Assembly: GCF_007859755.1 (NCBI RefSeq)
Contig: NZ_SJPF01000003.1
Span: 1-64,000 of the forward strand
DNA: 64,000 nucleotides
Reading direction: 5' to 3'
Source: Blastopirellula retiformator
Lineage (GTDB): Bacteria; Planctomycetota; Planctomycetia; Pirellulales; Pirellulaceae
Under the pieces are notes generated by a model, which worked only from the letters and a program-made list of their open reading frames with translations, did not search any database and was not told the DNA's origin. How positions within the stretch are numbered: position 1 is the first letter of the stretch; each line of letters opens with the position of its first letter. The translations under genes were made by a program, and so were the position numbers. Shown here in pieces: positions 2,784 through 34,782 of this stretch.

Positions 2784-3340
2784 TTAGTCGTCGCCCGTGC
2801 CGAGCTTTTCGTCGGGGCCGAGCAGTCCCATCACGACGATCAGTACCGGGCCGAACGGGCTAGCTGCCTGTTGAAAAATGCCATCGTGGCATTTTCCAAC
2901 CTCGCCAGGCTCAGAGCGTAGCTCTTCGCGGCTCGCAAAATAACGACTTACGTCGCTATTTTGGGATCGCATCCCTGCGATCCAGCAGCCCGTTGAGAAA
3001 ATCAACGGACTGCTAGAGCTAGTTTGCCGCCGGGGCGGCAGGTCGGCCGGTGGGCGGCGCCGGAGCCGCGGCATCCGGGCGGGCGAGAGTGGCTGTGCCG
3101 CCGTGTCGGAGGTGGCCTGGGTCGAGGTATCGCGATTGCTCAGCGGGGGAGAAGCGGCGGTTTGACTGGCGTCAACCGTCTCCATCTGCCATCGGCCGAG
3201 ACCTTGGTCTCCGGCGGCACTTCCTGGTCGGGTCCCAGCGACATGGTCGCTCGCATTTTGGACATGAAAAATAGTTCTTTGTGGTCGAGGTCGAATACCC
3301 CGAGAGAACCGCATGAATGTAGGTACTGTTCAGGGGTCAT
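2784..3340 (-). pseudogene. Possible decayed secreted-protein gene split by a 149-bp repeat
   Basis: On the minus strand a frame from 3340 reads MTPEQYLHSCGSLGVFDLDH and on to KVSADGRW. Coding character then seems to shift to a second frame (METVDASQTAASPP). The family-1 repeat at 2864-3012 follows; beyond it the same second frame continues as PFGPVLIVVMGLLGPDEK and stops at 2784. A third frame ends in an Ala/Pro-rich tail with a stop three bases from the repeat duplication. This suggests a small gene with frameshifts and an element insertion. No family is recognised and the region could also be non-coding. Confidence 0.3.
2864..3012 (-). mobile_element. Family-1 149-bp palindromic element, copy A
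   Basis: A full-length copy in reverse orientation (starts ctgcctgttga, ends tcaacggactg). It is exactly 149 bp and flanked by the direct repeat CTAG (2860-2863 and 3013-3016). It lies between the convergent MFS gene and M28 peptidase, possibly inside a decayed gene. Near-identical copies occur at 8210, 10086, 11316, 28193 and 34634. In forward orientation it forms serial hairpins: element positions 1-27, 31-48 and 51-76, and a last one near 120-140. It encodes no transposase, so it must be moved in trans. Confidence 0.9.
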
Positions 3341-3479
3341 TCAACGTGAAATCGGAGATTCATTACTTGGCGCAATTCGCTCCGTCAGCCGGCCGCCAAG
3401 TTGGTGGATGTCGCCGTAATCCGGGCTAGCAAGTGGTCATGCCAAGTCGGCTGGGCGCGACACTTCGTCTTATCGCCGC

Positions 3480-4385
3480 CTATCCGCCCAGTCTGCGGAC
3501 CGCGGCGGCGACGCCGAGGGCGACCTCGGTCATCCGCTCGTAGTCGAGCGTGTCGGGCGTGTCGGTCATTTGGTGATAGTTGGGATTGCGCAAAAAGCTG
3601 GTGTCGGTCAGCATCAGCGCCGGGTAGCCTTGGTCCCAGAACGAACTGTTATCGCTGCGGCGGATCTCGTGGATCTTCTCCGGCAGATTGAGCGACCAGA
3701 GTGGCAGCTGGGAGCCTTGTTTGAAGCCGCGGCGGAACTGCCAGTTCAGCTTCCAACTGCTCAGATTGCCGACCGCCGCCAGGAAGTTTCCGACTGTCGG
3801 AAAGAGCGGGTGAAAGATCTTGGGCATCGTGTCGGGGATTTTTTGCGAGTTGGGATCGTCCCGAAAGTAACCGACCATCTCTAGGCAAAGCATGCCGAGG
3901 ATCTGCTCGTTGGCCGCGCGGGCCGTTCGCGCATGGTGCTGACTGCCCATCGCGCCCAGGTTGAAATAGGGCGCCTCTTCGCAGGCGAACGCCACATACC
4001 GCAGCGTCCGCCGCGGCGCGTGAGCTTTCAACAGTCGCGCCACTTCCAGCATCACCGCCACCGCCGAGGCGTTGTCGTCCGCGCCTGGCGTATAGGGCGT
4101 TGAGTCATAGTGGGCGCCAAGCAGGATGATCTGCTCCGGACGCTGGCTGCCGCTGGTTTCGACGATCAAGTTGGTCGCTTCCCCCTCGCCGGCGTCGTAG
4201 GTCTGCTGCCGCACCTGATAGCCCATCTCGATCCATTGCTGCGTGATGTAACCAATCGTCGACGTCAGGGCCGCCGGATGACGCAGGGTGCGAATGCCGA
4301 TCAGATTGGCCAGGCAATCGACATGCTTGGTCAGACGCGCGGCGATAGCGGCATTGTCGATTGTCGATTCGTTGGCTTGTCGCAT
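3480..4385 (-). CDS. M28-family zinc aminopeptidase
   Basis: A 301-residue metallopeptidase of clan MH, family M28, which removes amino acids from peptide N-termini using two zinc ions. The ligand pattern is clear: H92 in GAHYDS, bridging D103 in GADDNAS, the catalytic/ligand Glu pair E136-E137 in CEEAPY, a further acidic residue in LCLEMVGY (about 169), and H271 in NPNYHQMTDTPDT. No signal peptide or membrane segment is visible, so a cytoplasmic location is inferred, although many relatives are exported. It is divergent from the secreted protein at 4561; the roughly 175 bp between them presumably hold both promoters. Peptide specificity cannot be told. Confidence 0.88.
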   Translation of the reverse strand: MRQANESTIDNAAIAARLTKHVDCLANLIGIRTLRHPAALTSTIGYITQQWIEMGYQVRQQTYDAGEGEATNLIVETSGSQRPEQIILLGAHYDSTPYTPGADDNASAVAVMLEVARLLKAHAPRRTLRYVAFACEEAPYFNLGAMGSQHHARTARAANEQILGMLCLEMVGYFRDDPNSQKIPDTMPKIFHPLFPTVGNFLAAVGNLSSWKLNWQFRRGFKQGSQLPLWSLNLPEKIHEIRRSDNSSFWDQGYPALMLTDTSFLRNPNYHQMTDTPDTLDYERMTEVALGVAAAVRRLGG

Positions 4386-4560
4386 TGCGCATGAACCAGT
4401 TGATGGCGAATTGTCGATTTCTTGCCCGCATAAATCGGCTACGGCAGGCGAGTTGATTTCTTTTTACCCGTTATCGCGTTCGTTTTCGCGTAGTAGAAAC
4501 AAGAACGTCCCTTCGCGGGTAAGCTTTTCGCCCCCCTGCTCTTCAATTTGGGAGACTCTC

Positions 4561-5805
4561 ATGCCCCGTTTGCAAACTGCGCTTTGGATTGGCGCTTGTT
4601 TTTCCGTTCTGTTTTTCACGCGATCGAGCGTCGCTGAGCCGCCGACGGCTGAAGAGTCGCTGGTCAGCTATGACCTGGCGAGCGGCAAAGCGGCGCTGGA
4701 AGATTACCTGGCCGAAAACGAAGGGGACGCTTCGCAGCGGTTCGGCCTGGGGGTGGTGCAGTTCGCCAGCGCCGTCGAGACGATGTCGCAGTCGTTCTAC
4801 GAATGCGGCGTGCGCGACCATCGCCAGCAGATTCCCTTTCTGCGGATCGTCGCTGCAGAAAATCCAAATCCCAAAGCGACTAGCTATCAGGACGTCCGCA
4901 ACATCTTGCAGCGTTTTGTCGACGACCTGGCGGTGGCGGAACAAACGCTGGCCAAAGTCGATGACAAAGAGGTGAAGCTGCCGCTGCCGCTGTTTCAGAT
5001 TCGCTTGGATCTCAACGGCGATGGAACGACCACCGAAGCCGAGACGCTCGCGGGCGTCGCGATGCACTTGCGGATGATCGAAAATGTGCCTGGCAACGCC
5101 GGCGTCGATCGCCCCTACGAAACGGTCGTTGCGTTCGACTACGCCGATTGTCTCTGGCTGCGGGGCTACTGTCATCTATTGAGCGGCTTGGCCGAAACGT
5201 GGCTGGCCTATGACATGCAACAACTGCATGATCGGGCTGGCTACGTCCTATTCGAGAAGATCGATTCGCCGCACGCGTATCTGGGAGAGGCGAAGAAAAC
5301 GTTTCCGATCAGCGGTGTCGACATTATCGATGTGGTGGCGTTGATTCATTTGATCAACTTTCCGGTGAAAGAGCCGGCCAAGCTGAAAGACGCCCACGCT
5401 CACTTCCTGCAGGTGATTTCGCTCAGCCGACGCACCTGGGATACGATCGAAGCGGAGACCGATGACGATCGGGAGTGGATCCCGAGCCCTAAGCAATCGT
5501 CTCCAGTTTCTCGGGTACGGACGACGCCAGAGATGGTGACCACTTGGCGCGAGTTTTTAGACGAACTGGAAGCGATCTTGCAGGGAGAAAAACTGGCGCC
5601 CCATCCGCGGATTGTCGACGGCCGCGGCATCAATGTGAAGAAGGTTTTCTTCGAACCGCAACCGTTTGACTTGGTGATGTGGGTGCAAGGGAGCGGCGCG
5701 ACGCCGTTTCTGGAAAAAGGGCCGATCACCGATCAGGCGTTCTGGAGTCGCATCAACCGCGCCTTCAACGGGCAGTTCATGAGCTTCGCCGTCTGGTACA
5801 ACTAG
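4561..5805 (+). CDS. Secreted protein of unknown function with EF-hand-like loop
   Basis: A 414-residue protein starting MPRLQTALWIGACFSVLFF, a good Sec signal peptide with likely cleavage near SSVAEPP. The ATG at 4561 places the signal at the N-terminus and has a gggaga stretch just upstream. The mature part is mostly alpha-helical in appearance. DLNGDGTTTEAE (about residues 155-166) resembles a calcium-binding EF-hand loop. I do not recognise the family; similar large secreted proteins of unknown function are common in planctomycetes. It converges with the sulfatase, their stops being only a few bases apart. Confidence 0.75.
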   Translation: MPRLQTALWIGACFSVLFFTRSSVAEPPTAEESLVSYDLASGKAALEDYLAENEGDASQRFGLGVVQFASAVETMSQSFYECGVRDHRQQIPFLRIVAAENPNPKATSYQDVRNILQRFVDDLAVAEQTLAKVDDKEVKLPLPLFQIRLDLNGDGTTTEAETLAGVAMHLRMIENVPGNAGVDRPYETVVAFDYADCLWLRGYCHLLSGLAETWLAYDMQQLHDRAGYVLFEKIDSPHAYLGEAKKTFPISGVDIIDVVALIHLINFPVKEPAKLKDAHAHFLQVISLSRRTWDTIEAETDDDREWIPSPKQSSPVSRVRTTPEMVTTWREFLDELEAILQGEKLAPHPRIVDGRGINVKKVFFEPQPFDLVMWVQGSGATPFLEKGPITDQAFWSRINRAFNGQFMSFAVWYN

Positions 5806-5809
5806 TCGG

Positions 5810-7435
5810 CTACTTCGCCGGCGGCTCGGCCAGCTTAGGATAGACCGCCACCCGCTTCGCCCAGGCGTTCCACTGCTGCGCCAGCTCCTTCACCTTATCG
5901 GGGTTGTCGGCGGCCAGGTTGTTGGTTTCGGTCCGATCGGCGGCGATGTTGTACAGTTCCCAGTTTTCGGGACGCACGCCGCGCGGCCGGGCGACGTTCC
6001 GACCAACCAGCTTCCAGTCGCCGGAGCGAATCGATGCATTGTTCTCATGCTCGATGCAGAGTGGTTGCTGGCGGTAGAGCGACTTGCCGGTCATCGCCGA
6101 TCGCAGCGACACGCCATCGAGCGGATGAATCTTCCGCCCGTCGTATTCGGCTGGATAGGTGGCGCCGGCGACATCCAGGATCGTCGGCATTACGTCGATC
6201 AGATGGGCCGGTTCGGCGTACCAATCTTGTTGCGCCGCGATCTTGGCAGGCCACCGCATGAAGAACGGCGTGGCGGTTCCTCCTTCATGATTGAAGTGCT
6301 TGTAGAGTCGGAACGGCGTATTGCTGGCGTTGGCCCACGCTTCGCCATAGCCATGGAAGTATTGGCGGTTGCGTTGTTCGATATTGCGGAACTGACCGCC
6401 GCCGAGGACGCCCCCTTCCTGGCAGCCGCCGTTGTCCGACAGGAACAGGATCAGCGTGTCATCTTCGATCCCAGATTCCTTCAGGTAGCTCATTAGCTTG
6501 CCGACGTTTTGATCGACGCGATCAATCATCGCCGCGTAGACCGCCATCTTTAGATCCATCTCGTCTTGCTTGTCGGCGTCCAGTTCGTCCCAGGCCGGGA
6601 TCTTCGGCGTGCGGGGCGAAAGCTCAAGATTGGCCGAGATTAGTCCCAGTTCCTTTTGCTTGGCGAGCCGTTGCTCGCGCAGTTTGTCCCAGCCGATCTT
6701 GTACTTGCCGCGGTACTTGGCGATATCTTCCTCAAACGCTTGGATCGGCCAGTGGGGCGCGGTGTAGGCGAGGTAGAGGAACATCGGCCGCTTGGCGCCC
6801 GCTTGCTCTTCTTTGAGGAATTGAATCGCATAGTCGGTGAACGCGTCGGTGGTGTAGAACTGCTGATCGGTCGTGCTTTCCAGTTTTTCGATCGGCTCGT
6901 TCCCCAGCGACATGCCGCGATCACCGCCGGGATAGAAGTGGAGCGTCGCGCCAGAGACGCAGCCGAAGTATTTCTCAAACCCGCGCTGCAGCGGCCAACG
7001 GCTCTCGTCGTTTTCGCCCAGGTGCCACTTGCCCGACATCAGCGTGGCGTACCCCTGGTCTTTCAGCGCTTCGGCGATCGTGACGCAGTTGTCGTTCAAG
7101 AAGCCTTGATAGGCGGGCGACTTGCCGGCGCCATAATTCATTTCGCCGGGCGACTCGGTCATGTGACCGACGCCGGTTTGATGCGGCTGCAGCCCGGTCA
7201 TCAAGGTCGCACGAGTCGGGCAGCAGCGACCATTGTTATAGAACTGCGAAAAGCGAACGCCGCTGCGGGCGAGCGCGTCAATGTTCGGCGTCGCGATCTC
7301 GCCGCCGTGATAGCCAAGATCAGAGAAGCCCATATCATCGACCATGATCAGGATGATATTGGGGCGCTCGGCGGCGGCGGTTGTCGATGCGCAGGAAGCG
7401 AGCAGCAGCAGAGTCAGGGTGGCGGCGTATTTCAT
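5810..7435 (-). CDS. Arylsulfatase, exported
   Basis: A 541-residue sulfatase that hydrolyses sulfate esters, in planctomycetes usually on algal polysaccharides. Visible signatures: the metal-binding start RPNIILIMVDDMG (D33-D34); the formylglycine motif C-C-P-T-R with C71 as the residue converted by the sulfatase-modifying enzyme; GKWHLG; and the DNGG metal site. The ATG at 7435 gives the signal MKYAATLTLLLLASCA; the Cys at 15 could make it a lipoprotein, or cleavage may follow AAA at 20-22. Length is normal. A decayed relative lies immediately upstream on the same strand, suggesting an old tandem duplication. The natural substrate is unknown. Confidence 0.93.
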   Translation of the reverse strand: MKYAATLTLLLLASCASTTAAAERPNIILIMVDDMGFSDLGYHGGEIATPNIDALARSGVRFSQFYNNGRCCPTRATLMTGLQPHQTGVGHMTESPGEMNYGAGKSPAYQGFLNDNCVTIAEALKDQGYATLMSGKWHLGENDESRWPLQRGFEKYFGCVSGATLHFYPGGDRGMSLGNEPIEKLESTTDQQFYTTDAFTDYAIQFLKEEQAGAKRPMFLYLAYTAPHWPIQAFEEDIAKYRGKYKIGWDKLREQRLAKQKELGLISANLELSPRTPKIPAWDELDADKQDEMDLKMAVYAAMIDRVDQNVGKLMSYLKESGIEDDTLILFLSDNGGCQEGGVLGGGQFRNIEQRNRQYFHGYGEAWANASNTPFRLYKHFNHEGGTATPFFMRWPAKIAAQQDWYAEPAHLIDVMPTILDVAGATYPAEYDGRKIHPLDGVSLRSAMTGKSLYRQQPLCIEHENNASIRSGDWKLVGRNVARPRGVRPENWELYNIAADRTETNNLAADNPDKVKELAQQWNAWAKRVAVYPKLAEPPAK

Positions 7436-7636
7436 GTGTCGCTGGCAGGTGTGCTGGAGAGAGGGGGCGGCGCAACCGCCGCGGAGGAGGAACTCTCTCA
7501 CGATACACGAATGGAGCGCGAAAACGAACCGGTTTTCGCCCATTGGCAATATCTCTCAGCCGAGTTGAGCTTGGGAGTCGCAGTGCAGCTCGATTTTGTG
7601 GTTGGTGAACTGTGATTTCCGATTCGGACGAGCCAA

Positions 7637-8700
7637 CTAGCGAATCGAGAACTGGCGGATGACTCCCTGGAACGTATTCGGGGCGTCGTAGTCGCCGGCG
7701 GCCGATTTTGCATCGTGCCCCAGCGACAACTGGTCAAGCGGCTGAGCGGGAATGAGACCGGGCGAATCGATCGTCAACGGCGCGTCGTCATTGATCTGCA
7801 GCGTCATCGTCTTTTCGTCCAGCGTGGCCCGCAGGTGGAGTTTGCCGGCCTGTTTTCGTTGGGCGATCAGCCGCGTCACTTTGCCGTGGATGCGAACATC
7901 AAATGCGGCTCGGCCATCGCCGCAAAGACCGCCATCCGCCGCGCGAGATCGTCGCGGCGATCTTGCGGCAGATCATCCCAGGCCGGGTTTTGTTTGCCCG
8001 AGTAGCCGTTGAAAACGTCGGTCGCGTAAAAATCGTCTTGCGGCGGATCGATTTCTTTGTTGTGACCGGCCGGGAGACGCTCATAATAGTTGGCGTCGTA
8101 CTGATCGTGCGAGTGATCAAAGGTGTAGCCGTAGAACTCGTCAAAGCCGCGGAGGATCGGACCGGTTTCGTTGTGCAGGCGCCACTTGCCGACGTAGTAG
8201 CAACCATAGCAGTCCGTTGATTTTCTCGACGGACTGCGTGATCGCATGGATGCGATCCCAAAATAGCGACGTAAGTCGATATTTTGCGAGCCGCGAAGAG
8301 CTACGCTCTGAGCCTGGCGAGGTTGGAAAATGCCACGATGGCATTTTTCAACAGGCAGATAGCCGGCCGGCTTTAAGACTTCGGCCATCGTGACGCAGTT
8401 TTCGCGCAGTCGGCCGAGATAGCCGGGACCGCGGGTGGGGTTCGGCTGGGCGGTGGTGAAGTCGCCAATGCCGGCTTGGGTGGGGTAGAGCCCCGTCATC
8501 AGCGCCGCCCGGCTGGGGCAGCAGCGGGCCGAGTTGTAGACTTGCGTAAAGCGAACGCCCCGCTTGGCGAGAGCGTCGATGTTGGGGGTGGGGATCTCGC
8601 CGCCGTAACAGCCCAGGTCGGAATAGCCGAGATCATCGGCCAGGATCACCAGGATGTTCGGCTTTTGCGCTTCGGCGGCAGGATCAGGCGGGACACGGCG
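7637..8700 (-). pseudogene. Sulfatase pseudogene with internal deletions and an in-frame repeat
   Basis: The minus strand reads KPNILVILADDLGYSDLG, the formylglycine motif C-C-P-S-R and CVTMAEVLKPAGY. The 149-bp element follows in frame, and the sulfatase resumes at GCYYVGKWRLHNETG. After YATDVFN the text jumps to GYSGKQNPAWDDLP, so about 70 residues normally between these motifs are missing. After MAVFAAM it jumps, with a frame change, to a C-terminal jelly-roll-like tail (7879-7637) containing LIPAQPLDQLSLG. No convincing start codon or signal peptide precedes KPNIL. The catalytic core is therefore broken by deletion as well as by the element. It is in tandem with the intact sulfatase. Confidence 0.85.
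8210..8358 (+). mobile_element. Family-1 149-bp palindromic element, copy B (inside sulfatase pseudogene)
   Basis: A 149-bp copy in forward orientation (cagtccgttga to tcaacaggcag), flanked by ATAG at 8206-8209 and 8359-8362. It interrupts the sulfatase between PAGY and GCYYVGKW. Element plus duplication adds 153 bp, exactly 51 codons. The minus-strand frame through it (LPVEKCHRGIF and so on) has no stop, so the host reading frame is preserved. Confidence 0.93.
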
Positions 8701-8989
8701 ATTCCTGGGGTTGGACGAGGTTTTTCTCTATCGTAACCCGTGGTATGCCGCGGTTCGACTTTGGGGCTCGATCTTTGGCACAGGAAAACGACTTCGCCGC
8801 GCAAAGAATCACAGGCAAATTGCCCGTCTGCGGCGACCGCGAAGATAGCCCCTTCGTACTAGTTTTCGCGGCAACTGATTCAGGAAGTTTCGCAAAGAGT
8901 CATTGTGCACTCCCCTGCTTCAGCCAAAATAGAGAGATTCGCTCTCGGCGAAGACCAAAATCAGGGCGAAGTTGGGAGCTGATTCTGTG

Positions 8990-10048
8990 ATGCGGGGTTT
9001 CTTCAGTATTGAATTCTTCGGGAGCATTTTGTTGATGGTGGGAATGTTGACGGCGACCGCAAGCGCCGAAGAGTCGCGGTGGGCGATCGCCCTGCATGGC
9101 GGCGCAGGCTTTGCGTCGCCTGACATGGCGCCGGAGAAGGTCGAGCAATTTCGCGTAGCGCTGGAGAAAGCGCTGGCCGCTGGCGAAAAGGTTTTGCAAT
9201 CGGGCGGAACCGCCGTCGACGCCGTCCAGCAGACGGTGATGGTCTTGGAAGACGCACCCTACTTTAACGCCGGACGAGGCGCCGTATTTAACGCCGAGGC
9301 GTTTCATCAGCTCGATGCGTCGATCATGGATGGCGGCAATCTGGACGGCGGCGGGGTCTCAGCCGTCAAGCATGTCCGCAATCCGATCCGCGCCGCACGG
9401 CTGGTCATGGAGAAGACGCCGCATGTATTGTTGACGGCCGACGACGCCGACCAGTTCGCCAAGACCAACGGGCTGGAGATGGTCGAGCAAGGCTACTTCT
9501 ACGATGCGTCGAGCTGGGCCGAGTTCCAGCAGTGGAGCGAAAAGAAGAACGGCGTCGCCCCCAAAGCGCCCAGCTATCCGCTGAACGAATCAGCCGCGGT
9601 TGCGGAACCGACCGACACTAATTTCACCTGCGGAACGGTCGGCTGCGTGGCGCTGGACAAACACGGCAATCTCGCCGCGGCGACGAGCACCGGTGGGATG
9701 ACCGGCAAGTTGCCCGGACGGGTCGGCGACTCGCCGATCTTGAGCGCCGGCACCTACGCCGACAACGCCGGCTGCGCGGTCAGCGGAACCGGCGTCGGCG
9801 AGCAGTACATTCGCCATGCGATCGCGTTTCAAACTAATTGGCGCGTCAAAGAGAACCAGCAGCCGGTCGCCGACGCGGTGCAAGATTGTCTCGACAAAGT
9901 CTTGAACCCCGGGGACGGCGGGATTATCGCTATCGATCACGACGGCAACATGGCCCTGCAGTACAACTCCGGTTCGATGAGCCGCGGCTGGTCCGACTGG
10001 CGCGGCAATCGGGGCGTCGCGATCTGGAAAGAGCCGCTCGAAAAATAA
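8990..10048 (+). CDS. Isoaspartyl peptidase / L-asparaginase (Ntn-hydrolase)
   Basis: A 352-residue member of the plant-type asparaginase family, which self-cleaves into alpha and beta subunits and hydrolyses isoaspartyl dipeptides or L-asparagine. The new N-terminal nucleophile is T216 in CGTVGCVALD. Other family motifs are LHGGAG near the mature N-terminus, YFNAGRGAVFN and a Gly-rich GGMTGKLPGRVGDSP. The N-terminus (FGSILLMVGMLTATASAEE) is a signal peptide, so the enzyme is probably exported. The ATG at 8990 is preferred; a TTG at 8972 is possible. It converges with the alcohol dehydrogenase, with a family-1 repeat between them. Confidence 0.9.
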   Translation: MRGFFSIEFFGSILLMVGMLTATASAEESRWAIALHGGAGFASPDMAPEKVEQFRVALEKALAAGEKVLQSGGTAVDAVQQTVMVLEDAPYFNAGRGAVFNAEAFHQLDASIMDGGNLDGGGVSAVKHVRNPIRAARLVMEKTPHVLLTADDADQFAKTNGLEMVEQGYFYDASSWAEFQQWSEKKNGVAPKAPSYPLNESAAVAEPTDTNFTCGTVGCVALDKHGNLAAATSTGGMTGKLPGRVGDSPILSAGTYADNAGCAVSGTGVGEQYIRHAIAFQTNWRVKENQQPVADAVQDCLDKVLNPGDGGIIAIDHDGNMALQYNSGSMSRGWSDWRGNRGVAIWKEPLEK

Positions 10049-10085
10049 GCGGCTCTTGTCGGCTCTCGTTCTTGGGGGCGGTAAG

Positions 10086-10234
10086 CAGTCCGTTGATTTT
10101 CTCAACGGGCTGCTGGATCGCAGGGATGCGATCCCAAAATAGCGACGTAAGTCGTTATTTTGCGAGCCGCGAAGAGTTATGCTCTGAGCCTAGCGAGGTT
10201 GGAAAATGCGACGAGGGCATTTTTCAACAGGCAG
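10086..10234 (+). mobile_element. Family-1 149-bp palindromic element, copy C
   Basis: Full-length, forward orientation, flanked by TAAG at 10082-10085 and 10235-10238. It sits between convergent genes, 37 bp after the asparaginase stop and 7 bp from the alcohol dehydrogenase stop. Its hairpins could serve as a bidirectional terminator. Confidence 0.92.
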
Positions 10235-10241
10235 TAAGGGT

Positions 10242-11279: not shown

Positions 11280-11315
11280 GGTTTTCTTGCCTAAAAATGG
11301 AATGGGGTCCCTTAA

Positions 11316-11464
11316 CAGTCCGTTGATTTTCTCAACGGGCTGCTGGATCGCATGGATGCGATCCCAAAATAGCGACGTAAGTCGTTATTTTGCGAGCCGC
11401 GAAGAGCTACGCTCTGAGCCTGGCGAGGTTGGAAAATGCCACGATGGCATTTTTCAACAGGCAG
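11316..11464 (+). mobile_element. Family-1 149-bp palindromic element, copy D
   Basis: Full-length forward copy flanked by TTAA (11312-11315 and 11465-11468). Unlike most copies it lies between divergent genes, 36 bp upstream of the alcohol dehydrogenase start, and fills much of the 359-bp gap before the amidase. It may change expression of the dehydrogenase. Confidence 0.92.
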
Positions 11465-11638
11465 TTAAATCATCGTATGCGCCCGGCTCTCCGCCGCAAT
11501 GAGAGGTAGCCCGATTGCCGGCAGATTTTCGCTTTCCCCCGCGAATGCCGGGGTTTGCTCGCCAGGCCGCAGAAAGTACGTACCATGGAGAGGAGATCTG
11601 CTCCCTATCCCACTTCCTCGCTCTCGGCGGCTCTTCCT

Positions 11639-19831: not shown

Positions 19832-20208
19832 GCGCCGGCTGAGCTGTAGCTGGCGAGGTTGGAAAATAACGACTTACGTCGCTATTTTGGGATCGCATCC
19901 CTGCGATCCAGCAGCCCGTTGAGAAAATCAACGGAATGGTAACGCGGTAACGGCCAGGAGTCAGGGGTTAATTTCCCGCAAAAACGGTCTACCCCTGCCG
20001 GCTGCCGTATCAGCGAAGAATCGGCTGTAGAGCCGTCGATATAAGGGCTTTAGCCTCTGCTGGCCCCTGATTTTAGGGGTTAGAGAAGTTTTTCAATTGG
20101 TTGAACCAAAGGGGCGACTCGCCTATCCTTGTACGTTGCAACCAATACGGCTGGGGTCGCCAGAGGCGATCCCATTTTTTTCTGTTACTGCTACCGGAGT
20201 TTATCTAG
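19832..20208. other. Intergenic region: rearranged family-1 fragment and ilvB leader
   Basis: Positions 19841-19935 hold a degenerate family-1 repeat; the remaining roughly 270 bp precede ilvB. They contain several short complementary stretches (ggagtcaggggtta / cccctgattttaggggtta), but no leader peptide rich in branched-chain codons and no clear attenuator that I can identify. Confidence 0.4.
19841..19935 (-). repeat. Family-1 element fragment with internal inversion
   Basis: The right part (19861-19935) matches the reverse-oriented element from aaaataacgac to aacgga. The left part (gtagctggcgaggttgg) is the middle segment of the element in the opposite orientation. The junctions fall in the aaaat/atttt arms. 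The end with the second terminal inverted repeat is missing and no target duplication remains. Confidence 0.75.
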
Positions 20209-26559: not shown

Positions 26560-26731
26560 ATCGGAAAGAGGACGCAAAAGGAGCGAAAAATCAGCGCTGC
26601 GCGCAAATGCCGGGCGCACAGGTACTTGAAAACTTGGCTTATTCCACGGATAAAGCCAGACGGACCTCCCGCCGACTGGCGCTGGCGGCCCTGTTTTCCA
26701 ATCGACAATCCTGATAATCGCGACAATCGCT

Positions 26732-27523: not shown

Positions 27524-27607
27524 TGCGATTTCTCACCAGACATAAGTTGCAAGTTTAACGATCGTGTCGATCGGATTGGCTGGCGCCGATGACATGCCAC
27601 TGCTTTC

Positions 27608-27768
27608 TAGAGCGTTTTTCTGATAGCTGTAGCGTTTCTGGCGTTAGTGAGGCAAGCTGGTCAAGGCGACCGAAGCAGGCGAATCCTCAAGATTCGTCGA
27701 TACAGGTCAACGCCGACCAGCGCGGCCGCAACCAGCCAGAACGATACAGATGGAGGAAAACCGCTCTA
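27608..27768 (+). mobile_element. Family-3 MITE-like element, copy 1
   Basis: A 161-bp unit bounded by TA on both sides. The terminal inverted repeats are about 32 bp: it begins gagcgtttttctgatagc and ends with a sequence whose complement begins gagcggttttcctccatc. TA flanks and GAGCG ends suggest mobilisation by an IS630/Tc1-like transposase (inference). Relative to the copy at 55451 it has about 56 extra bp in the middle. Confidence 0.8.
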
Positions 27769-27867
27769 AATTTGCGGTCAGTTTAACCGTCAGCCTGCGG
27801 AAAACCACATCCGCAGGACGTGGACTTCTTTGCCTAGCAGGCGAACAATTAGGGCGTTGAGAGGATC

Positions 27868-27906
27868 AGTCGCTTTCCGCCTGCCCAAAGGAAAGCGACT
27901 CTTCTT
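27868..27906 (+). terminator. Possible terminator hairpin
   Basis: A perfect 11-bp stem, agtcgctttcc (27868-27878) and ggaaagcgact (27890-27900), followed by cttctt. It lies 345 bp after the nearest upstream gene, so its role is unclear. Confidence 0.4.
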
Positions 27907-28001
27907 ATTGACGTTTCCCGCACTAGGCGATCCCGGCCGGCCATTCCCCCAAGTTTGCCCCCGCTGGCCGGATCGCCTTTTTTCGTTCTTGCCCAGCAAG
28001 A

Positions 28002-28170
28002 GGAACACGGAAGCCACGGCAAAGAGCACGGAGGAACGCGGTAAGAAAAAGGAAGTGAAAGAGGACGCCGCAGCAATGATCATCGGGGTGCGTGATAGAA
28101 CTCGCTTTCCCGAATAATTTCCTCTTGCTTACCGCGACTTTCCGTGATTCATCCGTGGCTTCCGTGTTCC
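28002..28170. repeat. Long imperfect inverted repeat
   Basis: The left arm (28002-28048) with ggaacacggaagccacgg is mirrored by the right arm (28122-28170) with ccgtggcttccgtgttcc. The outer 18 bp are a perfect match; the inner arms, built on cgcggtaag and cttaccgcg, match less well. This may be the remnant of another small mobile repeat. Confidence 0.6.
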
Positions 28171-28192
28171 ATTCTTCTGTCGGCGAAGCTAA

Positions 28193-28341
28193 CAGTCCGT
28201 TGATTTTCTCGACGGACTGCGTGATCGCACGGATGCGATCCCAAAATAGCGACGTAAGTCGTTATTTTGCGAGCCGCGAAGAGCTATGCTCTGAGCCTGG
28301 CGAGGTTGGAAAATGCCACGATGGCATTTTTCAACAGGCAG
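28193..28341 (+). mobile_element. Family-1 149-bp palindromic element, copy E
   Basis: Full-length forward copy flanked by CTAA (28189-28192 and 28342-28345). The right duplication contains the TAG stop of dps (complement of 28342-28344), so the element sits exactly at the end of that gene. Confidence 0.93.
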
Positions 28342-28785
28342 CTAAGTCTGCAGGTAAGAGCTGAGCATCCAGCGTTCCTTCTCAAGGCTGACGATAAAGT
28401 CTTCCAGGATGATCACCGTGCCGGTGTCGCCGATCTCTTCGGCATGGGTATGCACCTTTTTCACGTGATCGTTTAGTTTGCCCATGTCGGCGTGCAGGTT
28501 GGCGACCATCGCTTCGGCCGAAGCTTGCGAGTTGTCTTCGACCAAGGTCGTCAGCTTCAGGAACTCGGCCAACGTGCAGGGAGGATTACCGCCAAGCCCG
28601 CGAATGCGTTCAGCGATTTCGTCGATCGACTCAGCCGCCGCCACATACAGCTCTTCAAACTTGGCGTGCAGCGGAAAAAAGTCTTTGCCGACGACGTTCC
28701 AGTGATAGCCGCGTAGCTTTTGATAGAAGACGGCGAAGTCAGCCAACAACTTGCCCAGTTCTTTGACGGCGCCATGATCGGTCAT
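28342..28785 (-). CDS. dps: Dps-family ferritin-like DNA-protection protein
   Basis: A 147-residue Dps protein: a dodecameric mini-ferritin that oxidises iron with peroxide and protects DNA. The intersubunit ferroxidase site is visible as H28 in RGYHWNVVG, H40 in PLHAKFEELY and the acidic set in AESIDEIAERI. A Lys-rich DNA-binding tail is absent. The stop codon coincides with the target duplication of the family-1 element, so the gene's natural 3' flank has been replaced by hairpins. No peroxide-response operator is recognisable upstream. Confidence 0.93.
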   Translation of the reverse strand: MTDHGAVKELGKLLADFAVFYQKLRGYHWNVVGKDFFPLHAKFEELYVAAAESIDEIAERIRGLGGNPPCTLAEFLKLTTLVEDNSQASAEAMVANLHADMGKLNDHVKKVHTHAEEIGDTGTVIILEDFIVSLEKERWMLSSYLQT

Positions 28786-28969
28786 GGGGGGAGATCTCCA
28801 GAGGTGCGTTTGAGGTCAGATCGGGGTTACTCGTCATTATACGAGCGTGCTGACTGGCCGCCAATTGCCGACCGGCGAACCTTGCGTGACTTCCTGTTTG
28901 CGAGCAGCTATCCTGAGACCGATCGGCGCCCGGGCCGAAACAAAGATCCAGCTGCCCAATCCCGAACCG

Positions 28970-29659
28970 ATGGAATGCCCCACCATACACGTTCGTCGGC
29001 AAGCAAGGGCAGAAGCTGGGCTTTTCCGACAAGGCGTGGGAAGCGGCCTTGTACTATACCGCACATCGTTCGGTCGAGAGCGTTTGGTTCGCGTGTTGCC
29101 TTCGCAAGCCGCCAATCCGTATGTCGCTCAGCAGAAGATCCTCGGCTTTCACGATGCCGCCAGTCAGGCCGACGCCCTGGCGATTGCGCCCTATCTGAGC
29201 ATGAACCTGAGTCCCCAAGGCAAACCTTCGTCGGATGAAGTGGCCGGCTGGACGGTCGACCAAGTCTTGGATCATGCCGAGCAGCATTCGCTGCCGCAGT
29301 GCACGGAGTGGATGGAAAAGAATCGCGAATAGGCCGCCAAGCATCGGTTGCAACTGTTGGCGTATGAAGGAGGTCAGCACTTTGTCGGCGTCGGCGGTGG
29401 CGAACGTAGCGAGCAGCTGACCCGTGTGCTGCATGCGGCCAACGCCGATCCGCGGTTGGCGGAGATCCATGCCCGTTACTTCGCCGCCTGGGAAGCCAAC
29501 GGCGGCGGCCTCTTCCGCTACTTCTCTTCGGTCGGCGGGTGGTCGAAATGGGGCAGCTGGGGCGCTCTGCAGTCGCTGGAGGAAGACCCTACCCAATCTC
29601 CCAAGTACCAGGCGATGCAGACCTTGGCGGAAAAGCTGGGGCAGCCAATCGGACGCTAA
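28970..29659 (+). pseudogene. Remnant of a large secreted protein gene, frameshift plus nonsense
   Basis: One frame reads GQKLGFSDKAWEAALYYTAH. A different frame continues with GRERLVRVLPSQAANPYVAQ and ALAIAPYLSMN, up to WMEKNRE. A TAG at 29330-29332 then interrupts, but the same frame resumes with AAKHRLQLLAYEGGQHFVGVGG and runs to 29659. So there is a frameshift near 29080 and an in-frame nonsense codon. The text resembles the C-terminal part of a planctomycete secreted protein sometimes annotated as cellulose-binding; the N-terminal part is missing. It looks like neutral decay of a truncated copy. Confidence 0.75.
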
Positions 29660-29971
29660 TCGGGCCAGGATATGCCACTTTTGGTGGGAATGAGCTTCTC
29701 CTTTGTTGCCACTCTTAGGCGTTTTTTTAGAAATTTTCCCGAAGACTTAGGCGCAGATCCGACCCGTTCTGATCGCCAAATCGGTCGTAAAAGCTCTTGT
29801 TTTTTCATTGATATTTTGCTGGCCGGTGGGGTGTGTCTCTGGAGCGCGCAAATGTCTAGACCTTAGTTAGGAAATAAGTTTATTCTAAACCGTATGTTGA
29901 TGCGTTTATATTTTCCTTTGTCGACATGCTTCCATTCCCCGTTTTCCTGCAAATACGGAGATGCCCTTCAC
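29660..29971. other. Intergenic region, AT-rich
   Basis: About 310 bp before the DUF1559 gene. The last 150 bp are clearly AT-richer than the surroundings and presumably hold its promoter. No repeat or RNA is recognised. Confidence 0.35.
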
Positions 29972-30943
29972 ATGCAAAACAAAAATCGTGGTTTTACCTT
30001 GGTCGAATTGCTCGTGGTGATCGCCATTATTGGCGTCTTGATCGCCCTGTTGTTGCCGGCGGTGCAGCAAGCCCGCGAAGCGGCTCGCCGCATGAGCTGC
30101 AGCAACAACATGAAGCAAGTCGGATTGGCGCTGCACAATTACCATGACACGTTCCTGGTACTGCCCCCGCAAGTCGCCAAGGGAGGCCACAGCGCCGACT
30201 GGTGGATTCACATCCTGCCCTTCTGCGAACAGGGGAACGTCTACGCTCAGCTTCGCGTTGACGCCGGCGGATTTTGGATGGGCAGCACCAGCCCCCAGGC
30301 GGTTAACAACAAAGACGTGCTCGACGAGTTTGCACCTGTCTACATGGTTTGCCCCTCGTCGCCGATGCCGACCTTTCTGACCAAGGCGAACTCCAGCGGC
30401 GACACCGATCAGATCGAACCGTCGTACGTTGCGCTTGCCGGATCGAACAACCACTCGACGACCGATACGTCGGTCAACGGCGGCAACTCGCCGATCTCCG
30501 CCGGCGGGATGATCCTGCGTGGACAGTCCCTTAATTTCTCGGCTTGCACCGACGGTACGTCAAACACGATCGTCGTCGCCGAGCAAAGCAACTGGGTCAA
30601 GAACTCGTCGGGGCAAAACCAAGACATTCGCGCGTCGCACAATGACGGCGGCTGGCAAGGAACGAATCCGGTGACGAAGGTCAACGGACCTGGCAGCGTC
30701 ACCGGCGACGCCAATCGTTGCTGGAACGAAACGACCGTCATCGGCGGTCTGGGCGTGCGGGTCTATGACGCGACCACGATGGGGCCGAACAAGTGCAACA
30801 CGCCGCTCGTCTCGGCGCATCCTGGCGGCATTATGTCGCTTGGAATGGATGGCCATGTCAACTTCATCGCGGAGACGATTGACGTGACGACCTGGAAGAA
30901 CGCCGTGGATCGCAACGACGGCAACGTCGTTACGCTCCCGTAA
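29972..30943 (+). CDS. DUF1559 pseudopilin-like protein
   Basis: A 323-residue DUF1559 protein. The prepilin signal [19 protein letters not shown] is followed by [20 protein letters not shown] and LHNYHDTF. The C-terminal [19 protein letters not shown] is the family signature. The start at 29972 (MQNKNRG) puts a six-residue basic leader before the cleavage site, and ggag lies about 12 bp upstream. A terminator-like hairpin and a small lipoprotein gene follow, a pairing seen again at 31802/34205. Its role is presumed to be at the cell surface. Confidence 0.93.
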
Positions 30944-30973
30944 CGCGAATCCTGCCCTGAAATCTGTGATGCC

Positions 30974-31008
30974 AGGCCGCCGCTTCAGCTATGACGCGGC
31001 GGCCTTTG
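30974..31008 (+). terminator. Terminator-like hairpin after DUF1559 gene
   Basis: A perfect 10-bp GC-rich stem, aggccgccgc (30974-30983) and gcggcggcct (30996-31005), followed by ttgt. It lies between the DUF1559 gene and the lipoprotein gene and may attenuate rather than end transcription. Confidence 0.65.
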
Positions 31009-31057
31009 TCATGATTCACGATCCAACCTGCCCCAAACTGCACGGAGAAGAGCGCCG

Positions 31058-31468
31058 ATGAAATTCTATTTGCCCCTGCTGCTGACCGCCGCCTTCACGA
31101 TTTCGGTCGGCTGCAATTCGCAAGCCACGCTCGGGACAATTCACGGTACGGTGACCAGCGATGGCGCACCCCTGACCGAGGCGACCATCTCGTTTCGCAA
31201 CATCGATACCGGAGAAAGCATCAGCGACGAGCTGGACGATCAGGGCCTGTTCGATATTACCGCCGCTGGTGGGATCAAGCCTGGTAAGTACAAGGTGGCG
31301 ATCATTCCGCCGGAAGTGGAAGTCTCGCGGGGGCCCAACAGCTCGCCGGTGCTGCAGCCCAAAGAGATGCCCAATCTGCCGAAGCAGTACCGCAGCATGA
31401 ACACGACGCCGCTCATCAAAGAGGTGGTGGCCGGAGAGAACGATTTCAGCATCGAGCTTAAGCAGTAG
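31058..31468 (+). CDS. Small lipoprotein with carboxypeptidase-regulatory-like domain
   Basis: A 136-residue protein. The lipobox is in MKFYLPLLLTAAFTISVGCN (Cys 19 would be lipidated). The body is one beta-sandwich of the kind seen in carboxypeptidase-regulatory-like or transthyretin-like domains: GTIHGTVTSDGAPLTEATISF, GLFDITAAGGIKPGKYKVAII and a final NDFSIELKQ. Planctomycetes often encode such lipoproteins beside DUF1559 proteins. ATG at 31058 has ggaga about 10 bp upstream. Confidence 0.8.
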   Translation: MKFYLPLLLTAAFTISVGCNSQATLGTIHGTVTSDGAPLTEATISFRNIDTGESISDELDDQGLFDITAAGGIKPGKYKVAIIPPEVEVSRGPNSSPVLQPKEMPNLPKQYRSMNTTPLIKEVVAGENDFSIELKQ

Positions 31469-31801
31469 ATCGCGCTGCTGAAGGTCACCACTGCGGCGAA
31501 AAACAGCGCGTTTGACGGGATTTTGGTAGTCGGACCGGGTGTCGCAGCGACTAACGGAAGAAAACACAGACTTTTTATTGAAATTAACGGGCCTTTCCGG
31601 TGGTTGAATGACCGCGCAAAGGCCGGTAATTTTTGTTTATGCAAAAAAATAGAGAATTACCCTGCTCTTGCCCGTAACGGATCTCAGGAGTGTCGATACA
31701 ATAGAAGCAAACTCCGCGCAATGGATCGCCTAGCCCTTGTTCCTGTTTGCGACTCCGGCGCGCCTCTTTTCATCTCATCTATTTCTCAGGAGCACTCACT
31801 T
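31469..31801. other. Intergenic region, nothing recognised
   Basis: About 330 bp between the lipoprotein gene and the next DUF1559 gene. The ATG at 31802 is preceded by caggag. No hairpin or repeat is evident. An in-frame extension upstream of the DUF1559 start shows no protein features. Confidence 0.3.
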
Positions 31802-32761
31802 ATGCGTATTCGACGCGCTGGGTTCACACTCGTTGAACTGCTTGTCGTCATTGCGATCATCGGCGTTTTGATCGCGTTGTTGTTGCCCGCGGTCCAGCAA
31901 GCTCGCGAAGCGGCCCGCCGCATGACCTGCACCAATCAACAAAAGCAGATTGGTCTGGCGATGCACAACTATCACGACACCTTCGGTTCGTTCCCGCCGG
32001 CCGCGGTCTGGTTGGGCGGCACTGGAAACGCACCCGAAAGCGGACGCGATGGAAACTGGGGAGCGACTTGGGCCTTGATGATTTTGCCATTCCTGGAGCA
32101 AAACAACCTGCACGCCCAATACAACTTCGGCAACGTTGCCCGCGATACGACCAACAACCTGGTGACGCGACAAAAGCCAGACGCCTACCTCTGCCCGAGT
32201 CACCCGACGGTAACTGCGCGACTGACCCAAGACTACGACGGTTTCGCCAAGACCAACTACGCGGTCAGCCTGGGCGCCGGTCGATTGTTGAATCGCAGCG
32301 ACTTCACCAATGGCGCTCGCAAAGGAGCGTTTAACGTGGTCGGACAATACGGAGCGCAGTTCCGTGACATGACCGACGGAACATCGAACTCGATCATGCT
32401 GAGCGAAATCATGAACAACACCGCGACTTCGGATGACCGTGGCGCGTGGGGTTGGAATAGCGGAGCGACCTTCTGTGGCCGCAATTCGACGGGCTCCGAA
32501 GTGGTGATGACGCCGAATACGAAAACGCGGATGGACGCGAGCCACTACTCGTCGAACCAGACCAATCTGACGGTCTACGGCCAGAACTCGAATCCTGATG
32601 CGGCGACCGCTGCCGGCGTCGCCGCACGAAGTTTTCACCCCGGCGGCGTGATTATGTGCCTGGGCGACGCGAGCTGCCGCTTTGTCGGCGAAACGATCGA
32701 CGCGACCGTTTATGCCAATGCGATGGCCATCTCCGACGGCAATGCGACCACGCTGCCGTAA
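31802..32761 (+). CDS. DUF1559 pseudopilin-like protein
   Basis: A 319-residue DUF1559 protein with the prepilin signal [19 protein letters not shown], then [35 protein letters not shown] and the C-terminal FHPGGVIMCLGDASCRFVGE. Its N-terminal 60 residues are nearly identical to those of the copy at 29972, suggesting family expansion. Its terminator has been split by the IS3 element 50 bp downstream. The next gene of the original order is the small lipoprotein at 34205. Confidence 0.93.
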   Translation: MRIRRAGFTLVELLVVIAIIGVLIALLLPAVQQAREAARRMTCTNQQKQIGLAMHNYHDTFGSFPPAAVWLGGTGNAPESGRDGNWGATWALMILPFLEQNNLHAQYNFGNVARDTTNNLVTRQKPDAYLCPSHPTVTARLTQDYDGFAKTNYAVSLGAGRLLNRSDFTNGARKGAFNVVGQYGAQFRDMTDGTSNSIMLSEIMNNTATSDDRGAWGWNSGATFCGRNSTGSEVVMTPNTKTRMDASHYSSNQTNLTVYGQNSNPDAATAAGVAARSFHPGGVIMCLGDASCRFVGETIDATVYANAMAISDGNATTLP

Positions 32762-32798
32762 GGCGGCCGGCTTCATTTTCGCGGAAGTATCAATCAAC

Positions 32799-32810
32799 AA
32801 ACCCATCTGC
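32799..32810 (+). terminator. Left half of a terminator split by the IS
   Basis: aaacccatctgc (32799-32810) is perfectly complementary to gcagatgggttt (34127-34138), which is followed by tcctttggg. With the IS and one CCGT copy removed, the two halves form a 12-bp stem with a loop of about 13 bases and a T-rich tail: the rho-independent terminator of the DUF1559 gene. Confidence 0.8.
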
Positions 32811-32885
32811 CGTTGGAGTGCTCCCCAAATCCTGATCCATTCGTTATGAAAGATCCAGAGCCAAAATTCTGGCGAAGGATTTTTT

Positions 32886-33167
32886 ATGAGTAAGAAGCGA
32901 CGTCGGCATTCGGCCGAACAGATCATCAAGAAGTTGCGGGACGCGGACGCCATGTTGGCGGCTGGCAAGAGCGTTGGCGAAGTGCTTCAGGCGTTGGAAG
33001 TGAGCGAGGCGACGCTCAGCCGTTGGCGAACGCAGTACGGCGGCATGAAGAGCGAAGAGGCGAAGCGGCTGAAATCGCTCGAAGAAGAGAACAACCGGCT
33101 GAAACGGATCATCGCCGATCAAGCGCTCGACATCTCGATGCTGAAGGAGATCGCCAAGGGAAACTGA
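32886..33167 (+). CDS. IS3-family transposase OrfA
   Basis: A 93-residue DNA-binding OrfA. The helix-turn-helix covers about residues 10-55 (SAEQIIKKLRDAD, VLQALEVSEATLSRWRTQYG). A leucine-zipper-like segment follows (EEAKRLKSLEEENNRLKRII), which pairs subunits in IS3 transposases. The last codons are aag gga aac tga, so the heptamer G_GGA_AAC (33158-33164) precedes the stop. This is a classical -1 slippery site for making the OrfAB fusion transposase. Confidence 0.95.
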   Translation: MSKKRRRHSAEQIIKKLRDADAMLAAGKSVGEVLQALEVSEATLSRWRTQYGGMKSEEAKRLKSLEEENNRLKRIIADQALDISMLKEIAKGN

Positions 33168-34084
33168 CCACCCCTCAGTCGCGCCGCGAGGCGGTCAAGC
33201 AGCTTCAGGAGAACTATTCGGTCTCCGAGCGGCGGGCCTGTCGCGTGCTCGATCTGCCTCGATCGAGCCAGCGATTTGAGGGGAAGCCGAGGGACGAAGA
33301 CGCCCGCCTGACCAAGCGAATTTTGGAGCTGGTGCGCGAGCGTCCGCGTTGGGGCTATCGCCAGATCTGTCAGCTGTTGCGACGCGAGGGGGAAACCTTG
33401 AACATGAAAAAGATGCACCGACTCTGGAAAGCGGCCGGGCTGAAAGTTCCGCAAAAACGCCGGAAAAAGCGGGCGACCGGCGTTTCAACGAACGCTTGCC
33501 ACGTGCAGCCGGCCAGCTTCATGCATGACGTTTGGACGTGGGATTTCATTCAGTCGTCGACGATCGACGGGCGAACGATCCGCTTTTTGAACATCGTCGA
33601 CGAGTACACGCGGCAGTGCCTGACGATCAAAGTGGGCCGCAGCATCACAAGCGAAGATGCGATCGATACGCTGGCCGAACTCTTCTCGATGCATGGCGTG
33701 CCGAAGCGAATTCGCTGCGACAACGGCCCAGAGTTCATCTCGTGCGCGATCAAGACGTGGCTGGTGCTGATCGGCGTCGAGGTGCTGTACATCGAGCCAG
33801 GCTCGCCGTGGCAAAACGGCTTTTGCGAAAGCTTCAATAGTCGCCTACGTGATGAGTACCTGCACCAGACCGACCTGCGGAACGAGGAGGACGCGAGGAT
33901 CAAAGCTCGGGCCTGGCGAGAAGACTTCAACGAGCGACGCCCGCACAGCAGCTTGGGCTACCTGACCCCGTCCGAGTTCGCGCGTCGCTGTGCCGCTTCC
34001 ACTCCAGTCGCTGCGCTCCTTCCGCTGCAGCGGCACAGCGACCCCACCCAATCGTTACCTGTTTCCCAAACCGATCTTTCATAA
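33158..34084 (+). CDS. IS3-family transposase OrfB (DDE integrase core)
   Basis: The -1 frame relative to orfA; translation is expected as an OrfAB fusion after slippage at 33158-33164, continuing as LTTPQSRREAVKQLQENYSV. HTH_21-like text (RPRWGYRQICQLLRREG) precedes the rve integrase core. The DDE residues are visible as D in WTWDFIQS, D in IRCDNGPEF and E in NGFCESFNSRLRDEYL, 35 residues apart as usual. The C-terminal HSSLGYLTPSEF is typical. No in-frame stop is seen, so the transposase appears active. Confidence 0.93.
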   Translation, partial: GKLTTPQSRREAVKQLQENYSVSERRACRVLDLPRSSQRFEGKPRDEDARLTKRILELVRERPRWGYRQICQLLRREGETLNMKKMHRLWKAAGLKVPQKRRKKRATGVSTNACHVQPASFMHDVWTWDFIQSSTIDGRTIRFLNIVDEYTRQCLTIKVGRSITSEDAIDTLAELFSMHGVPKRIRCDNGPEFISCAIKTWLVLIGVEVLYIEPGSPWQNGFCESFNSRLRDEYLHQTDLRNEEDARIKARAWREDFNERRPHSSLGYLTPSEFARRCAASTPVAALLPLQRHSDPTQSLPVSQTDLS

Positions 34085-34204
34085 GGCTTGGTACAGAAAA
34101 AGGGGGCAGGCCACCGTCTGAAGCGTGCAGATGGGTTTTCCTTTGGGATTCAGACCAGCTCACATCCTTTCCTCGCTCACGTCCTATTTTCAGGTGCTCC
34201 TGCC

Positions 34205-34567
34205 ATGCATACTCAACGTCTCTTGTTGGTTCTCGTAGGTTTTCTTTTCTGCACCGGCTGCTTTTCCGGTCCGGGAAGCGAAGGGGTCGGCGTGACCGAT
34301 CCGGAAGTTGGTAAGACCGTTCAAAGTCAGGTCGAGAATTTCGTAACCGTGGCGCAGAAATCGCCCCGAGCCGCGAAGGGGAACCTGGACCTGATGCTCG
34401 AGTCGCTGGACGGCGCTGCCGATCGCGGCGAGGGGTTCGCCAAGGTGCGGGACGAAGCCAAGAAGCTGCAGTCGATGTACCAAGCGAAGGCGAAAGACGC
34501 CAAGTTGAAAGCGCAAATGCAGACGCTGAAAACGACCGCTGACGCGCTGGTTCCGGGCTCGAACTAA
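34205..34567 (+). CDS. Small lipoprotein of unknown function
   Basis: A 120-residue protein with a lipobox in LLVLVGFLFCTGCFSG (the second Cys is the likely lipidation site). The mature part is helical and Lys/Ala-rich (EAKKLQSMYQAKAKDAKLKAQMQ) and may form a coiled coil. ATG at 34205 follows an aggtg-containing leader. It was originally the neighbour of the DUF1559 gene at 31802 and is now separated by the IS, matching the 29972/31058 pair. Confidence 0.75.
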   Translation: MHTQRLLLVLVGFLFCTGCFSGPGSEGVGVTDPEVGKTVQSQVENFVTVAQKSPRAAKGNLDLMLESLDGAADRGEGFAKVRDEAKKLQSMYQAKAKDAKLKAQMQTLKTTADALVPGSN

Positions 34568-34633
34568 CGATCTCCACCGAGGTTGGCCCCCAATCGACTC
34601 GTTATCGGGGCCGGCCGCTGGAGCGCGGCTTAG

Positions 34634-34782
34634 CTGCCTGTTGAAAAATGCCCTCGTGGCATTTTCCAACCTCGCCAGGCTCAGAGCATAGCTCTTCGCG
34701 GCTCGCAAAATAACGACTTACGTCGCTATTTTGGGATCGCATCCCTGCGATCCAGCAGCCCGTTGAGAAAATCAACGGACTG
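34634..34782 (-). mobile_element. Family-1 149-bp palindromic element, copy F
   Basis: Full-length reverse-oriented copy flanked by TTAG (34630-34633 and 34783-34786). The right duplication contains the TAA stop of the cupin gene (complement of 34783-34785). It lies between convergent genes, 66 bp after the lipoprotein stop. Confidence 0.93.

Follow-up and report, generated by a model that had tools for sequence, protein, structure and literature searches.

The stretch of Blastopirellula retiformator DNA analysed here (the window; 64,000 nucleotides, positions 1 to 64,000 of contig NZ_SJPF01000003.1) contains six full copies of a 149-bp element with a folded interior, which probably moves by means of an IS1182-like transposase. 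The copy at 11316..11464 (+ strand, target duplication TTAA) served as the reference. The others lie at 2864..3012 (- strand), with the duplication CTAG at 2860-2863 and 3013-3016; at 8210..8358 (+ strand), within a sulfatase frame, with ATAG at 8206-8209 and 8359-8362; at 10086..10234 (+ strand), with TAAG and with convergent genes on either side; at 28193..28341 (+ strand), with CTAA, adjoining the stop codon of a - strand gene called at 28342; and at 34634..34782 (- strand), with TTAG, adjoining the stop codon of a - strand gene called at 34783. The original prediction had reported these six copies, each of exactly 149 bp and each flanked by a perfect direct repeat of 4 bp, and all of them were found again in the same places; five of the six duplications fit NTAR, TAAG being the exception, as had been counted before. 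Its list lacked a seventh copy, truncated and decayed, at 19847-19938 (- strand), of which the left 76 bp are a good match. The terminal inverted repeats are imperfect as described, since the termini CAGTCCGTTGA and CTGCCTGTTGA are identical at 8 of 11 positions.

Regarding the whole 6.2-Mb genome, the exact left-end 27-mer occurs 224 times (115 and 109 times on the two strands), and the same 27-mer written backwards, used as a control, does not occur. The number of full copies is only a lower bound, because 40 of 382 candidates were scored. In a 460-kb sample of 21 pieces, which is not random (18 pieces were chosen for the 27-mer, two for insertion sequence (IS) remnants, and one is the window), we found 48 full copies; 46 of them were exactly 149 bp long and 38 had a perfect 4-bp duplication. 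Perfect duplications also flanked 20 of the 30 copies closest to the query. Pooling the sample copies with the best-scoring copies of the genome search and removing overlaps gave 74 distinct full copies, 55 of them with a perfect duplication, so that the flanking 4-mers are still duplicated in a larger sample. Read on the element strand, these duplications were TTAG (15), CTAG (14), CTAA (11) and TTAA (7), that is, 47 of the type YTAR, the remaining ones being ATAG (4), GTAG (2), TAAG (1) and TTAT (1). Many of the 19 copies without a perfect duplication were off by one or two mismatches. The 149-bp copies are 90-100% identical to the reference copy; this fits the recent mobilisation proposed before, while present activity goes beyond the data. 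The element is short, has many copies and no transposase gene, and combines terminal inverted repeats with a target duplication, which are the characters of a miniature inverted-repeat transposable element (MITE). No match to it was found in the plasmid and phage sequences searched.

Two sites of the window could be judged for empty alleles in relatives, namely 11316 and 8210, the flanks of 2864 being too diverged from those of the sister genome G002. Both sites were found empty in sister species. At 11316, G002 has uninterrupted sequence with a single TTAG, and at 8210 the genomes G001, G002 and G003 have one ATAC or GTAG each. A copy with decayed ends has the same flanks in G001 and G003 (L279 and L280, both at 5001-5150) and is apparently orthologous. 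The copy at 8210 is inserted into the reading frame of a sulfatase (PF00884; 7876-8649, - strand), and since the element and its duplication add 149 + 4 = 153 bp, or 51 codons, the frame stays open.

The surroundings of the copies were determined with a simple codon-score gene caller, trained on this genome and applied to the other genomes as well, no annotation being used. Only one of 48 copies lay inside a called gene. On the other hand, 29 of the 74 copies in this genome and 22 of 49 in other genomes were at most one base away from a called stop codon. Stop codons made up 145 of the 875 non-coding YTAR sites of the 460-kb sample, and the copies were enriched there (Fisher p = 0.0006; 47 sample copies outside genes). 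The copies are found at stop codons because YTAR contains TAA or TAG, so that the stop is restored on duplication. Of the 37 intergenic copies for which both neighbours had been called, 2 lay between divergent genes, although divergent gaps represent 34% of the intergenic bases. We found no orientation bias with respect to the genes, the copies adjoining stop codons being 18 opposite and 11 same here, and 10 and 12 elsewhere; a bias of 14 to 4 in a first set was gone once more copies were counted. These surroundings would suit an ordinary IS1182-type MITE whose hairpins serve as two-way terminators or 3'-end caps, with harmless insertions and no RNA partner, a reading that we consider possible, if rather doubtful. 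It would explain the enrichment at stop codons and between convergent genes, the scarcity between divergent genes and the lack of an orientation bias, and it has precedents in the SPRITE and BOX repeats, as far as these are treated in the excerpt of the report on them (PMC3049150).

As to the mobiliser, a DDE_Tnp_1 scan of this genome gave 23 matches. One of them, the remnant L078 (C1:769747-770961), has the right end TTCAACGGGCTG followed by CTAG and a damaged transposase gene, and its left part runs, as judged by eye, into an apparent IS3-type orfA. Its protein has the domains DUF772 and DDE_Tnp_1, and the best NCBIfam model is IS1182, with 163 bits for a cut-off of 270. The other remnants seen in this genome were a 96-residue fragment on C6 (L201) and a left end on C2 (L200); the mover may therefore have been lost, or the assembly may not contain it. 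Transposase matches were found in 13 of 60 genomes, the own genome included, some of them fragments. The intact IS1182-like relatives are 1.4-1.5 kb long, end in CAGCCCGTTGA and have duplications that are mostly YTAR. In particular, CAGCCCGTTGA forms both ends of five copies in G059, each 1,499 bp long. A matching duplication, CTAG or TTAG, flanks four of them; at the fifth (L111) the two flanking 4-mers differ, being CTAA and TTAA. In other phyla the IS1182-like elements end in CAGCCCGTTGA or CAGCCCGTGGT. From a collection of named genomes we tested 28 of the 45 loci fetched. CAG-CCGT-type ends together with an identical 4-bp repeat were present at 15 of them, Botrimarina colliarenosi Pla108 (L207) among these, and the repeat was YTAR in 14 and CTAC in L204. 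Such ends with unlike 4-mers were found in L202, L203, L205, L209, L226, L228, L230 and L216, and the remaining five loci had no CAG-CCGT-type end pair. IS1182 (NF033551) was the best model for all four proteins scored (163, 195, 196 and 195 bits, one protein being truncated), the full-length relatives reaching 195-196 bits, under the cut-off.

The candidate mobilisers thus share their ends with the MITE and make the 4-bp duplication of the IS1182 family. In the excerpt available, ISPse1 of that family, 1653 bp long, also has a 4-bp duplication (PMC3281130); IS1182 is the nearest NCBIfam model for the transposases found here, which stay under its cut-off. According to the part of the study at hand, IS1272 replaces inverted repeats without any duplication (PMC5678879), unlike the element described here with its 4-bp duplications. 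The likely mover is therefore an IS1182-like DDE transposase, and on comparison of ends, targets and proteins movement by such an enzyme appears well supported. The earlier suggestion that the element is non-autonomous and mobilised in trans agrees with the empty sites and with the transposase elements having like ends and YTAR duplications. The transposase with matching ends that was to be looked for exists as IS1182-like elements in other genomes, with only damaged remnants here; the ends, for which the original prediction knew of no named family, are recognisable as IS1182-like. As a separate observation, in L084:1294-2724 and L207:2312-3649 the transposase frame passes through the right terminal repeat and takes its stop codon from the TAG or TAA of the target duplication, and in the IS1182-like frame of L086 the stop codon is not supplied by the duplication.

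Other movers were considered. YTAR targets are what suggests a transposase of the IS701 type, and the duplications of the element would fit it. Nevertheless, the IS701 model (NF033540) had no match over the cut-off in this genome, and of four weak matches three were IS4-type IS and one lay beside an ISAs1-type gene, which rules IS701 out for this assembly and makes this mover very improbable. We hold it still harder to believe that the elements are moved by the IS4-type IS which was found in several of them. Among six located copies, four had both ends and one had one end inside an element; however, this IS has its own ends (CAATACCGTTCGGCACG), makes duplications of about 9 bp and has one copy outside any element, and it is therefore an intruder, nested in hairpin H5, rather than the mover. 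An ISAs1-type IS (10 copies, one protein scored ISAs1) was also rejected, as the common 1.26-kb stretch starts and ends away from the element repeats. The IS4-type IS, 1.55 kb long with the ends CAATACCGTTCGGCACG, was noted at the loci L031, L033, L072, L074, L075, L081 and L082; its copies within elements share a single insertion point in the H5 loop. Another family of interspersed repeats, whose ends resemble CTAGAGCG...CGCTCTAR, occurs in the window (27605-27769, 55448-55556 and 62578-62637) and in L033.

The interior is a chain of hairpins, as the original prediction had stated, and we distinguish five of them, with coordinates given on the + strand of the reference copy and with loop and motif counts taken from the consensi of 29 genomes, eight of which are represented by a single copy. 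H1 (11316..11342) is formed by the left terminal repeat CAGTCCGTTGA and its near-complement. H2 (11345..11364) has the loop NGGA, GGA being kept in 29 of 29 genomes. H3 (11365..11392) has the loop GTAA, which is of GNRA type in 16 genomes and absent in three. H4 (11393..11427) contains two tandem G.A blocks, CGAG/CGAG and CGAA/TGAG, kept in 21 and 14 genomes and replaced by Watson-Crick pairs in two and seven others. H5 (11428..11458) has a loop in which GA is invariant (29 of 29) and is, in some genomes, a second GGA hairpin; the outer arm of H5 shares bases with the right terminal repeat. Compared to dinucleotide shuffles, the folding z was -7.6 as DNA and -7.8 as RNA. The A-tract/T-tract stems of H3 and H5 would be in keeping with terminators, whereas the invariant GGA loop, the GNRA loop and the tandem G.A blocks are not predicted by terminators or 3'-end caps. 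No match on the element was found among 4,227 Rfam models (E up to 1; window 1-36000 and six loci). A match to MIR831 at 28004-28168 was far below the gathering score and was taken as chance.

The fold is widely conserved. By DNA, relatives of the element were found in 10 of 60 near genomes, one of them a 28-base match. A covariance model found matches in 38 of the 396 genomes sampled from the order, some of them marginal, and in 9 of 392 sampled from the phylum. Three of these nine lie outside the class; judged by eye, the matches in G583 and G628 seem sound, and the one in G523 resembles low-complexity sequence. These order and phylum searches were samples under strict filters, and the own genome is included in every tally. 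The range is thus wider than close relatives of the Pirellulaceae kind, extending to other families of the order and, rarely, to other classes. In an alignment of 49 sequences, 92.4% of the cells were paired and double changes occurred at 47 of 55 pairs. The double-change cells were 304, compared to 74.8 in shuffles (0 of 500 reached it) and 35-60 in slid controls, in which 34-42% of the cells were paired. The shuffle control ignores relatedness and the 49-sequence alignment was fitted to the structure; the slid controls tend to speak against this as the source of the covariation, as does a MAFFT alignment of 20 sequences not fitted to any structure, in which 40 pairs were predicted, 16 of them with double changes. 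A further alignment was limited to the 88 best among 139 model matches; the others were weak, partial or on the opposite strand.

We also followed the changes along a tree of 131 copies, from which identical copies of G000 had been removed, as had any row with over 25 gaps. On the end branches the pair breaks were 67.5 G.U and 61.7 A.C, with 43 double changes, and on the inner branches 35 G.U and 15.4-16 A.C (p = 0.011), with 63 double changes. The end branches thus look like neutral decay, and their contrast with the inner branches suggests that selection acts mainly on the moving copies. Rare one-sided changes within this genome, 8 G.U and 14 A.C (73 copies, with one locus, L013 = L196:11579, counted twice), are likewise in line with neutral decay once a copy has inserted.

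A fold kept, as it seems, mainly in the moving lineage, together with the z of -7.6 for DNA, would also be expected if it mattered as single-stranded DNA, in hairpins or cruciforms at replication forks that give access to the transposase or resist repair. We judge this improbable. Among 30 loci with related transposases no match to the module (model R2) was found at E<0.01, with one at 0.04, so that the interior does not look derived by deletion from a partner IS, which for MITEs is not obligatory. Furthermore, derivatives without H3, or without H2 and H3, have YTAR repeats on both sides, and such short forms either are mobile or came about through deletions in copies already inserted. Among 60 H1 matches in the sample, four stood alone as 27-bp units flanked by NTAR on either side, and the duplications of two were perfect (TTAA/TTAA and TTAG/TTAG). 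These solo palindromes (L188:10685, L193:19572, L194:4193 and L195:19711) may represent a mobile unit of very small size. One family of the order has 119-nt variants with most of H3/H4 gone, including two that lie in tandem with 4 nt between them (L137:1501-1742 and L139:1501-1742).

A different situation was found in the genus g58, where five of nine genomes have one match each. All these copies lie between tRNA-Val and tRNA-Asp, without transposon ends and antisense to the tRNAs, in an array of 16-22 tRNAs; ARAGORN called the tRNA-Val a Cys in two genomes, an odd anticodon-loop call. The arrays (L274-L278) are on one strand and span about 3.5-6.5 kb. Among the five orthologues, compensated pairs were 4 of 8 in H2, 4 of 12 in H3, 0 of 10 in H4 and 7 of 14 in H5. 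Such a compensated single copy antisense to tRNAs is not predicted by the terminator explanation, and the retention of the fold without ends speaks against a role as single-stranded DNA. We regard the array copy as the strongest sign of the fold acting at a fixed place.

Taking these results together, we propose as the probable explanation a MITE that depends on an IS1182-like DDE transposase supplied in trans and carries a folded, probably RNA, module. The transposase would bind the 11-bp ends (CAGYCYGTTGA), cut out or copy the element and join it to staggered cuts at YTAR. Many extragenic YTAR sites are stop codons, and since the duplication rebuilds the stop codon there, such insertions would be harmless. 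The interior is not what is left of a known IS; it is a folded module that comprises H2-H5, about 115 nt. Compensatory change would keep it in the lineage of moving copies, while each inserted copy decays. The module may act as RNA, on the strand CAGTCC...CAGGCAG, through read-through transcription from host genes, and may help to maintain the element; most likely, the invariant GGA loop of H2 would attract an RNA-binding protein of the host. In the genus g58 an immobile copy would have been retained in the tRNA array.

A candidate partner is CsrA, which we offer as a lead by analogy. GGA in a hairpin loop, a trait of CsrA-binding RNAs, is present in 29 of 29 genome consensi; the fuller CsrA consensus is CANGGANG. 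In the excerpted account of CsrB/CsrC, sponge RNAs of CsrA/Rsm, GGA in hairpin loops is the key feature (PMC10729762), and the element is similar in having one such loop (H2), with a second in some genomes (H5), its CsrA binding being only putative. It is also conceivable, if unlikely, that we are dealing with a selfish gene for a structured non-coding RNA, which has a GGA hairpin of the CsrA type, uses IS1182-like ends to spread in genomes and was either domesticated in the g58 array, as a fixed RNA present once, or captured from such a cellular RNA. CsrA-family matches were 13 in G000 and 7 in each of three genus mates.

Several points weigh against the proposed explanation. csrA genes were found in all 60 genomes searched, the own genome included, irrespective of the element, and as a correlate csrA offers no contrast and therefore discriminates nothing. 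The evidence for the RNA strand is weak because, once H1 is set aside (the terminal repeat constrains its 5' arm), the inner branches retain by subtraction about 23 G.U and about 15 A.C; we thus do not take G.U versus A.C as proof of the strand. The contrast between inner and end branches was not significant (Fisher p = 0.066). A strand-specific role in cis might have produced the orientation bias that is missing. The YTAR-flanked derivatives without H3, or without H2 and H3, indicate that the fold may be dispensable in cis for movement. H4 has no compensated pair in g58 (0 of 10), and part of it is lost in two of the five copies. Finally, in the assembly of this genome (97% complete) no intact mobiliser was found, only remnants, and none of the four transposases (163-196 bits) reaches the curated NF033551 cut-off of 270.

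Regarding known systems, Rickettsia palindromic elements are small palindromic repeats that can sit in frame within genes; insertion in frame is possible in both, with one of 48 copies within a called gene here. The pneumococcal BOX, RUP and SPRITE repeats are, in the excerpt of the study describing them, small, high-copy and folded, often at the 3' ends of genes and presumed to move in trans, as here; they are from streptococci, whereas the present element has one fold across many families and a fixed locus resembling a non-coding RNA (PMC3049150). Two ISMac2-related, IS1182-derived MITEs of Methanosarcina acetivorans, of 160 and 169 bp with 14 and 7 copies, the first apparently with a 4-bp duplication, resemble the element in the IS1182-type partner, the size and the lack of a gene; they are archaeal, and the excerpt does not mention conservation of a fold (PMC3852290). 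As an IS1182-partnered MITE with 4-bp duplications had been tabulated there, that part of our finding is of a known kind (PMC3852290). In the titles and abstract starts listed from a library of CC-licensed papers, a scope outside which ISfinder and subscription journals lie, we found no description of this element. The new part is the conserved interior fold and the fixed copy in the tRNA array.

Bacterial MITEs are usually seen as decayed IS remnants whose hairpins derive from the inverted ends. Here, a transposase-dependent repeat bears a covarying interior fold across families of an order, which is retained without mobile ends at a fixed site. The element may therefore be a mobile non-coding RNA rather than transposon debris, and the question whether small repeats of bacteria can be RNA genes that move becomes open to experiment. 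Furthermore, its more than 200 natural insertions, many of them at stop codons, are a resource on how 3' ends tolerate a new RNA structure.

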